64,000 nucleotides of DNA, taken from positions 372,001 to 436,000 of the forward strand of contig NZ_JAOTQN010000001.1 in the NCBI RefSeq assembly GCF_025641885.1, read 5' to 3'. The position numbers and the translations under genes are program-made. The notes beneath the pieces were generated by a model, which searched no databases, was not told the DNA's origin, and saw nothing but the letters and a program-made list of their open reading frames with translations. Positions 27,441-30,482 of the stretch are shown piece after piece. Position 1 is the stretch's first letter, and each line of letters begins with the position of its first letter. Source of the stretch: Pyrobaculum sp. 3827-6 (GTDB taxonomy: Archaea; Thermoproteota; Thermoprotei; Thermoproteales; Thermoproteaceae).

Positions 27441-28343
27441 TTATTTGTCTCTCTTCCAGTTGCCGGGGCCGCCTCCGTGCGCGGTCTTGGCTGACCGCGC
27501 CTCGCTGATCAGCTCTCCAATTGAGCGTCCAGACACCAGGTCTTTGATAATGCGTTGCCTTGCGGCGATGTCCAGACCCCTCAGCTCGTGCAACAGCGCG
27601 GCTGTGTTGTTGAGCAACGCGATGCGTTCCGCCGCCCACTGTCTTGGGAAGCCCGCGATCTTCACCCTCTCGAAATGTTCAAACAACTCCCTAAGCCGGT
27701 CTCTGACCTTCTCCACCTCCGCCAGAACCTTCTCGATGTCGACTTCTGACACGTTCCCCGCCGCTATGCGTCTATATATCTTTGCCTCTTCGTGGATCAG
27801 CCACCTAGTGAGGTTAAGCCACTTGATATTCTCATCCACAGCCTCCACAGCCCGCCGCGATGCGTTGACAAGACTGAGCAAGTTTCTAACTCTCATAAGC
27901 GCGGCCAGCCCCCTATCCGTGCTGTTTAACAAACTCTGGACATCTCTAGACTCGTTAAGCAACCTATTTGCGTAGTGGATGGTTTTGTTTATGTGCTTGC
28001 CGAGCTCCTTAATGGCGGCCAGCCTGGCTTGGCGAATTTCTTGAAAAACCGCTTTCGGATCAGATAAGTTCAGCTTCCTCAACTCCCCAATGCCTATCAT
28101 AGGCCGAGGCGCGTAGCCCCAACGCCCAATAATAAACGTCTTGTTAATTTCGGATAGCAACGTCTGGCACTGGGGCAGTGTGAAGTTCGCGCCTGTGGCG
28201 TTTAGATACAGCTCGATAGCTTTACACTTCAGCCAGAGGTGGAAATCCATATTTCCAGTGGCTGAGGTGTCGGCGCCGTAGGCCAAGGAGGCGAGGAGCA
28301 CCGCCGCCACCACCGCCGGCGCTATTACTTTTCTGGAGTCCAT
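27441..28343 (-). CDS. Secreted helical protein
   Basis: From ATG 28343 the protein has 300 residues with a clear signal peptide (KVIAPAVVAAVLLASLAYGA). The mature protein is mostly alpha-helical with long heptad-like stretches (VLAEVEKVRDRLRELFEHFERV) and many N-glycosylation sequons (NAT, NFT, NKT, NES, NST, NAS, NLT, NVS, NNT). No family recognised. TCTATAAATCC lies about 25 bases upstream, which excludes the earlier in-frame starts. A surface-layer-associated or extracellular-matrix role is possible but not shown. Confidence 0.7.
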   Translation of the reverse strand: MDSRKVIAPAVVAAVLLASLAYGADTSATGNMDFHLWLKCKAIELYLNATGANFTLPQCQTLLSEINKTFIIGRWGYAPRPMIGIGELRKLNLSDPKAVFQEIRQARLAAIKELGKHINKTIHYANRLLNESRDVQSLLNSTDRGLAALMRVRNLLSLVNASRRAVEAVDENIKWLNLTRWLIHEEAKIYRRIAAGNVSEVDIEKVLAEVEKVRDRLRELFEHFERVKIAGFPRQWAAERIALLNNTAALLHELRGLDIAARQRIIKDLVSGRSIGELISEARSAKTAHGGGPGNWKRDK

Positions 28344-28427
28344 GAGCCCATGTACAAGGGGGGATTTATAGAGCCGCCTAGAAACCACGCGCGGAACTCT
28401 TAAATTCACAGGCGGAACAACGGCGAC

Positions 28428-29081
28428 ATGCTGATCCTCCTAAACCTCACGGCGCCTCCAGTCCTCCTGCTGTTCCTCCCGGCCGCCGTGGTGGGCAACT
28501 ACACACTCCCAGCCCCACCCCTCTCGGACGTAGCCGCCTTCACCCCCGGCGGCGCCCCGTTGCCCACATGGGTTGTCAACGGCACTCTATATGTACTCCA
28601 AAACGGAGACCCCGCCGTGGCTGTGTACATCCCCCGTTACGAAAACACCACAGGTATATACAAAATTACGGTGAGAAGCGGCGCAGTCGTTGTCCAGGCC
28701 CCACCCGGCGTCATGATACAAGACGTAGACAGGCAACCCACCAACGTAGTAGTTAACAAAACCGGCCTATACCTATACCTAACAGCCCCCGTCACCATTA
28801 CCTACTACTTCTTCACCATAACAAAGCCACCCACCACAACCACGCCGACTACCACCACGTCCACCCCCAGCAAAACCCCCACAGCCACGACGCCCGCCAC
28901 CGCGACGACACCCACGGCGCCCTCCACCACCCAGGTGCCCACACAGACACCCACCCCAGCCACCACCCGCCCAGCTACTCAGCAAACCCAGCCGGAGTGG
29001 CTACCTACGGCCGGGGCCGTCGCGGTGGCCGCGGCGGCCGCCGCTGGTGTAGTTGCCTACGTTTTAAAAAAAAGAAAGTAG
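28428..29081 (+). CDS. Extracellular domain with Thr/Pro stalk and C-terminal membrane helix
   Basis: The 217 residues have a signal peptide (1-22), an extracellular beta domain (about 23-130), a Thr/Pro-rich stalk (about 132-192) and a membrane helix near 195-213, ending KKRK and a TAG stop. The stop lies just after a TTTT-A8 run (29062-29073). A winged-helix domain without its own start codon continues in the -1 frame, so the two together resemble an extracellular sensor tethered to a cytoplasmic DNA-binding domain. TCTTAAATTC is about 25 bases before the ATG. Confidence 0.8.
   Translation: MLILLNLTAPPVLLLFLPAAVVGNYTLPAPPLSDVAAFTPGGAPLPTWVVNGTLYVLQNGDPAVAVYIPRYENTTGIYKITVRSGAVVVQAPPGVMIQDVDRQPTNVVVNKTGLYLYLTAPVTITYYFFTITKPPTTTTPTTTTSTPSKTPTATTPATATTPTAPSTTQVPTQTPTPATTRPATQQTQPEWLPTAGAVAVAAAAAAGVVAYVLKKRK
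29063..29074 (+). promoter_or_regulatory. Slippery A8 run, candidate -1 frameshift site
   Basis: In the frame of the membrane protein the bases read T TTA AAA AAA AGA, a heptamer of the X-XXY-YYZ type used for -1 slippage, inside eight consecutive A residues (29066-29073). Shifting back one base joins the membrane protein to the winged-helix frame. Transcriptional slippage in the A run or a genomic one-base change would have the same effect. Confidence 0.5.
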
Positions 29082-29299
29082 GTAGAGGCGACTGTGCCGA
29101 TTTAAACGAGGTAGACAAGGCGATACTGGAAGAACTAACGCGGCGTGGAGGCGGAGCTGACCGCGTGGAGCTACATGAGGCGCTGGGCATACCAAAAACA
29201 ACGCTCCACCGCCACCTTCACAAACTAGCCAGGTACGGCTACGTGCGGCTTGTACAACAAGGCGGGAGGCAGAGAGTAGAACTACTCAGAAAATGTTGA
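29069..29299 (+). CDS. Winged-helix DNA-binding domain without its own start (probable frameshift fusion part)
   Basis: About 76 residues: a basic KKKV segment, then LNEVDKAILEELTRRGGGADRVELHEALGIPKTTLHRHLHKLARYGYVRLVQQGGRQRVELL, a typical winged helix of the IclR/ArsR kind (recognition helix PKTTLHRHLHKL). There is no ATG, GTG or TTG between the A8 run and the domain. The nearest upstream start (GTG 28997) would translate the membrane helix out of frame as an Arg/Gly-rich string. It therefore probably becomes translated only through the -1 shift, yielding a fusion of about 290 residues. Confidence 0.7.
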   Translation, partial: KKKVGRGDCADLNEVDKAILEELTRRGGGADRVELHEALGIPKTTLHRHLHKLARYGYVRLVQQGGRQRVELLRKC

Positions 29300-29628: not shown

Positions 29629-29863
29629 TAATATTTTTCCCTCGTTCTACACATCCTTCACACACGCCGTTAGGTATAATACCCAAGTGGAGCTATTCCG
29701 CAGGACGTCGGGCTTGGCGCCTACCGGTAAGTAGCTGACTGCACGGCGGCTGGGGCCGTTGCGTGGGTTGGCTACTCCGGGTGTTGACTCTTTCCACTAT
29801 TCCTCTGTATACAGATGGGTATACGTAAGAGTAAACTTTTTAAGACTTTACGAGGGGGGTGGT

Positions 29864-30100
29864 GTGAGTGATGTCATATCTGTGAGAGTTAGAAAGGAGC
29901 TGAAGAAGGCGCTGGAGGATCTGGGTATTGACTACGCAGAGGAGGTCCGGCGTTATCTAGAGGAGCTGGTGGCTAGGGAGAGGAGGAGAAGAGCTTTGGA
30001 GAGGGCCCGCCAGCTACGGAAAACTCTGGAGAGGGAGGCCGGCGTCTTGCCCACCGCGGCTGAGCTGATTAGGGAGGATCGGGATGCGGATAGTCGCTGA
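29864..30100 (+). CDS. vapB: VapB-type antitoxin (ribbon-helix-helix-like)
   Basis: A 78-residue protein from the GTG at 29864: a short N-terminal strand (VISVRVRKELKKALEDLGIDYAEEVRRYLEELV) as in ribbon-helix-helix antitoxins, then a charged helix and an acidic tail. The frame extends upstream to 29759, but CTTTTTAAGAC at about 29837-29847 sets a leaderless start at 29864. It overlaps the toxin gene by 17 bases. It likely binds its own promoter and neutralises the PIN toxin. Confidence 0.8.
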   Translation: MSDVISVRVRKELKKALEDLGIDYAEEVRRYLEELVARERRRRALERARQLRKTLEREAGVLPTAAELIREDRDADSR

Positions 30101-30482
30101 CGCCTCTGCTATTGTAGCTCTGTACTTGCCGGAGAAGCTGAGCGAAGAGGTGGAGAAGGCCCTAGCCGGGGCCCACTCAGTCTCCTCGCTTGACTTAGCG
30201 GCGTACGAGATCCTCAACGTTGTGTGGAAACACGCCAGGCGGGGCCTCATAAGCCGAGAGGCGGCCCTCGAAATCGCGGGGGAGGTGCTTCAGCTATTTA
30301 AAACCTTGGAGGTGCACAGCTATAGGGAGGTCCTCCCCGACGCCCTAGAAATTGCCCTGGAAAAGGGAGTCACGGTGTACGACTCGTCGTACGTAGCCCT
30401 AGCTAAAAAACTAGGCGCAACCCTCCTTACGCTCGACAGACAGATTGCACAAGCCTTCCCCCAGATTGTTTACAAGCTGTAG
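30084..30482 (+). CDS. vapC: VapC-type PIN-domain toxin
   Basis: A PIN domain of 132 residues: Asp6 (VADASAI), Glu43 (AYEILN), Asp99 (VYDSSYV) and Asp117 (TLDRQ) make up the acidic metal site. The gene overlaps its antitoxin. It is intact in contrast to the decayed vapC at 36895-37272. After its stop, 30483-30630 contains an open frame in another phase without a convincing start. Confidence 0.9.
   Translation: MRIVADASAIVALYLPEKLSEEVEKALAGAHSVSSLDLAAYEILNVVWKHARRGLISREAALEIAGEVLQLFKTLEVHSYREVLPDALEIALEKGVTVYDSSYVALAKKLGATLLTLDRQIAQAFPQIVYKL

Follow-up and report, generated by a model that had tools for sequence, protein, structure and literature searches.

In the archaeon Saccharolobus solfataricus P2, the alpha-L-fucosidase gene fucA1 is split by a −1 shift at the heptamer A_AAA_AAT, its relatives being full-length, and a 2021 review gives it as the single reported archaeal case of −1 programmed frameshifting (PMC8211752). 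In Citrobacter rodentium, transcriptional slippage on an A11 run of tssM has been experimentally proven, reaches about 25% and supplies two product lengths, both of which are needed (PMC4256274). According to a passage of PMC1088944, half of the Thermus dnaX product takes the shorter form through a run of nine A's; the same passage cites a human gene in which insertion of an extra A in a run of eight A's yields about a tenth full-length product. Here we describe a candidate for recoding in Pyrobaculum sp. 3827-6 (genome G000; other G numbers denote genomes of its relatives). In a window of 64,000 nt, whose positions are used throughout, the frame of a predicted membrane-bound transcription regulator is split at a run of eight A's (A8).

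The locus resembles fucA1 in being an archaeal gene with a −1 split at an A-rich heptamer and with full-length relatives, but fucA1 encodes an enzyme and its frameshifting has been measured (about 10% in vitro), whereas the present case is a candidate. Moreover, fucA1 has been described with a stem-loop and rare codons, and no such stem-loop was found at A8. With tssM it shares a membrane protein gene interrupted beside an A run, where slippage would restore a C-terminal domain and yield two length variants; tssM, however, is bacterial, with a proven A11 run, and A8 is a candidate. Regulators anchored in the membrane are well known in archaea (PMC10269533, PMC6396743), and transmembrane transcription regulators (TTRs), such as the membrane-bound archaellum regulators of Sulfolobus, likewise combine a single-pass membrane protein with a cytoplasmic helix-turn-helix (HTH) domain (PMC10269533, PMC6396743). 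The Thermoproteaceae family described below differs from them by its long N-terminal ectodomain and C-terminal winged helix, and by the frame split in G000. Its fused members have the TTR plan, and the G000 product would be a TTR only if recoding occurs. In a full-text literature search, no paper paired 'transcriptional slippage' with 'archaeal RNA polymerase'.

The first open reading frame (ORF0, 217 amino acids) ends in VVAYVLKKRK with a TAG stop at 29079, and reads through A8 (29066–29073) in the codons GTT TTA AAA AAA AGA AAG TAG. Two overlapping heptamers of the X_XXY_YYZ type, T_TTA_AAA (29063–29069) and A_AAA_AAA (29066–29072), stand in the 0 frame upstream of this stop, as expected of −1 programmed frameshifting, and A8 itself is an A/T run of the length expected of transcriptional slippage at a frame junction (about 8 or more). 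Past A8, the −1 frame reads KKKKVGRGDC and then a complete winged helix, open until the TGA at 29297–29299. This frame matches the Pfam families HTH_IclR (1.3e-8), HTH_20 (1.4e-7), HTH_24 (8.6e-7) and MarR_2 above cut-off. The structure of the domain is predicted with confidence (predicted local distance difference test, pLDDT, near 90) and is similar to that of MarR/ArsR-type domains; none of the matches in a fold search with it fell below E 0.001. An earlier sequence-only reading had described just such a membrane protein, ending in a helix and KKRK-stop, whose frame crosses A8 and from which a −1 shift enters a winged helix without a start of its own, and both observations held. No ATG, GTG or TTG usable as a winged-helix start lies between the A-run and helix 1; the nearest starts in the −1 frame are GTG 28997, from which the membrane helix would be read in the wrong frame, and GTG 29165, from which translation would miss helix 1. 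An internal start for the winged helix was thus ruled out.

Orthologs were sought with each half in 19 genomes of the Thermoproteaceae and with the winged helix in 45 genomes of the order. The regulator family was found in no more than three genera (Pyrobaculum, Thermoproteus and a third), all of them Thermoproteaceae. Ectodomain and winged helix form one ORF of 250–345 amino acids, stop to stop, in G001, G002, G004–G007, G010, G012, G013 and G015–G018, and they are also fused in G011, where the ORF runs off the contig. In all these orthologs the ectodomain, stalk, membrane helix and winged helix are continuous, with the membrane segment and the DNA-binding domain in one polypeptide; this is exactly the plan of ectodomain, Thr/Pro stalk, membrane helix and cytoplasmic winged helix that the sequence-only reading had drawn. 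By sequence comparison, the fused orthologs establish that the two frames belong together, as that reading had held, and represent one ancestral gene, a TTR. A comparison of orthologs for fused or split frames, which it had proposed as a check, went partly its way: the split recurs with the same A8 in G003, but the other orthologs are fused, with a linker rich in R, K and G and without an A run. G003 is the closest species (93% amino acid identity in ORF0, and ∼94.6% identity across the aligned blocks of the two genomes), and the split is common to G000 and G003 only, with the same CGTTTTAAAAAAAAGAAAGTAG. Because the remaining orthologs are fused and lack the A run, the split is, from these alignments, derived and clade-specific, not a genus-wide programmed switch.

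Between these two species, the winged-helix part shows six synonymous and six replacement changes, with a ratio of nonsynonymous to synonymous rates (dN/dS) of 0.32, no stops and no indels. The ratio is 0.37 for ORF0 and 0.74 for its stalk and membrane segment (28821–29078); when the winged-helix region is read in either of its other frames, it exceeds 1.7. The replacements in the winged helix are confined to variable positions, and both split species retain every HTH position that is invariant in the fused orthologs, the one listed exception (V5) being an artefact of the linker alignment. The winged-helix branches are not accelerated relative to the fused orthologs, and the domain is 61–91% identical to fused or split winged helices in other Pyrobaculum. 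This pattern is suggestive of selection on the winged-helix frame, at a level that is not statistically significant.

Runs of at least eight A/T were counted in 1.2 Mb each of G000 and G003 and in the whole G003 genome. There are 8 such runs in the G000 portion and 1 in that of G003, which is the A8 junction itself; whole G003 (2.47 Mb) has four, the junction among them. When the G000 runs alignable to G003 were compared, only the A8 junction kept the same length. TTA supplies 4.8% of Leu codons, and Lys is encoded by AAA in 28% and by AAG in 72% of cases; from genome codon usage, the probability of A8 given Leu-Lys-Lys-Arg is about 0.01, a post hoc estimate.

We propose that a one-base change in the lysine-rich linker, in the ancestor of G000 and G003, split the coding frame of a single-pass membrane-bound transcription regulator. 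The main product would be the anchored ectodomain ending in KKRK, and slippage at A8 would yield, in smaller amount, the full-length protein (AYVL-KKKKVGRGDC-winged helix), which would regulate transcription from the membrane. Either RNA polymerase would add one A, nine A's restoring the frame, or the ribosome would slip −1 at T_TTA_AAA/A_AAA_AAA. We regard the two routes as about level; polymerase slippage on A8 requires no stimulator, and a ribosomal shift stimulated by RNA structure is less likely because no downstream structure was found. Recoding is plausible, since both halves have dN/dS of ∼0.3–0.4, the HTH core is intact, A8 is rare and its codons are unusual. The fucA1, tssM and human cases noted above serve as precedents, and the existence of short paralogs in relatives also speaks for it. 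We give an even chance to the claim that slippage at A8, whether by polymerase or by ribosome, supplies the full-length regulator as a minor product.

In G002 and G011–G016 (a genus including Thermoproteus), a second gene lacks the winged helix and stops just past its membrane helix and basic tail. By sequence, these short paralogs are built like the ORF0 product (ectodomain, stalk, membrane helix, basic tail), but they are separate genes, not one gene read two ways. In other Pyrobaculum genomes, which carry the fused form, no short paralog was found, so a short form is not a general requirement. In G002, the ectodomains of L039 and L050 are nearly identical, one copy having the winged helix and the other lacking it, as after a recent duplication or gene conversion. 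The split gene might replace such a pair, giving an anchor-only sensor and a membrane-tethered regulator from one gene in a set or condition-dependent ratio, although we hold this to be rather doubtful. As the sequence-only reading had suggested, slippage may then set the ratio of sensor to regulator, and the short form could act on the same extracellular signal, titrating or modulating it.

Several results weigh against recoding as a device of these organisms. A −1 programmed frameshift is expected to be conserved across several lineages, and the split is seen in two genomes only; with the others fused and their linkers free of an A run, the idea of frameshifting as a conserved Pyrobaculum device found no support. 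No significant downstream stem-loop was found (z −0.17 over 67 nt and +0.10 over 107 nt, in a model that leaves aside pseudoknots and growth temperature). Indels that split genes fall preferentially in homopolymers, and the position of the split at A8 therefore does not by itself tell programming from accident. With 12 substitutions, neutral simulations produce the winged-helix pattern at P 0.12–0.19, and the probability of no indel given neutrality is 0.16. Finally, other frames in the family are broken, at the N-terminus in G001, by a TAG in the second P. oguniense copy and at C7 in G014, which suggests from sequence a family tolerant of loss.

These points lend themselves to a truncation in progress, in which the ancestral one-base indel removed the winged helix, ORF0 was kept as an anchored surface protein and the remnant is silent and as yet undecayed. 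Beyond the broken relatives and the non-significant constraint, such a history draws on the 77% chance that a neutral frame would show no stop, and on winged-helix substitutions (12/216) near the intergenic rate of 5.4%. It has to accommodate core HTH positions spared by the replacements, a winged-helix dN/dS about equal to that of ORF0 and zero indels where 0.15 per substitution occur between genes, as well as a junction that is unchanged in both species. The lack of differences in the 60 nt around the junction was given no weight, as 22% of 60-nt windows overall show none either. We judge truncation possible, if on balance unlikely. Replicative phase variation, with populations toggling between an off state (A8, anchor only) and an on state (A9, fused) and both references caught in the former, is in keeping with the long G/C runs at frame breaks in both genomes. 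It is nevertheless improbable, A8 being short for switching, of the same length in both species and comparatively stable beside the other alignable A/T runs.

The gene might instead be plainly fused, with a true run of A9 that both assemblies undercall. A8/A9 is a classic homopolymer error, and a further frame break at a homopolymer (C7 at 1170101) occurs in G003 and is absent from G000, but the same A8 split from two different species argues against a one-off error, and G/C runs up to 13–14 were called in both assemblies; we consider an error more improbable still. Least credible, and barely worth entertaining, is a separate winged-helix gene with a non-standard start, transcribed from an internal promoter at the TATA-like TTTTAAAA. 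The sequence GTTTTAAAAA does resemble an archaeal TATA element, yet no start codon stands between A8 and helix 1, initiation at GTG 29165 would leave helix 1 out, and nothing TATA-like of this kind occurs in the linker of the fused relatives.

The features of the locus are collected in Table 1. The ORF0 transcript is likely leaderless, as judged from the sequence, because the ATG follows the TATA-like CTTAAATT by ∼25 nt and such an element stands at similar spacing upstream of the start in most Pyrobaculum orthologs compared. AlphaFold2 places strands at residues 35–128 of ORF0 and a helix at residues 195–216. The beta-rich ectodomain contains several N-x-S/T sequons, and a fold search with it found no significant relative. 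No intrinsic-terminator-like site was found in the region.

Table 1. Features of the split regulator locus (positions in the 64,000-nt window)
Feature	Position	Strand	Basis
TATA-like element CTTAAATT, predicted promoter, ∼25 nt upstream of ORF0 ATG	28399..28406	+	read from sequence
ORF0: N-terminal hydrophobic segment, beta-rich ectodomain, Thr/Pro stalk, membrane helix, KKRK-stop	28428..29081	+	sequence, ortholog conservation, dN/dS, AlphaFold2
Thr/Pro-rich stalk, least conserved segment	28821..28996	+	sequence
Membrane-spanning helix, then basic KKRK	29010..29075	+	sequence; AlphaFold2 helix 195–216
Candidate slip site T_TTA_AAA + A_AAA_AAA in A8, also candidate RNA polymerase slippage run	29063..29073	+	identical in G003; rare codons
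−1 frame: linker KKVGRGDC and winged-helix DNA-binding domain ...QRVELLRKC-TGA	29072..29299	+	Pfam; ortholog identity; dN/dS

Around the locus, the divergent upstream gene (27441–28409, − strand) is 61–73% identical to G003 in its middle (27700–28200) and more than 90% at its ends, as in a hypervariable or recombined segment. Comparison of neighbourhoods showed a GYD gene beside the locus in G000 and G003 only. At 29759–30482, a small ORF is followed by a PIN-domain protein, which looks like a VapBC toxin–antitoxin pair.

Among the broken relatives, the G001 ortholog (L038) has a one-base break at CCCC in its first codons, with a possible TTG start remaining downstream, and the fused-regulator ortholog in G014 (L018, near 1501–1560) is broken at the C7 run within the HTH recognition region. 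A dicodon scan for split genes at homopolymers (1.2 Mb per genome) returned mainly gene boundaries and G/C-run breaks and did not flag the A8 locus, and is insensitive for that reason. The C7 run at G003:C1:1170101 breaks an ATPase-like gene whose G000 ortholog, near 833300, reads C6 with its frame apparently intact; the G003 copy is thus a pseudogene or an assembly error. G/C runs of 10 stand at apparent frame transitions (G000:C1:1043846 and 352254; G003:C1:763408), and G/C runs of 9–14 occur in both genomes, possibly in phase-variable genes.

The two split species, their many fused relatives and the relatives in which both forms are separate genes make the family a clean system. If the proposal is true, the membrane regulator would be a second archaeal gene with recoding, and one in which recoding would be put to regulatory use.
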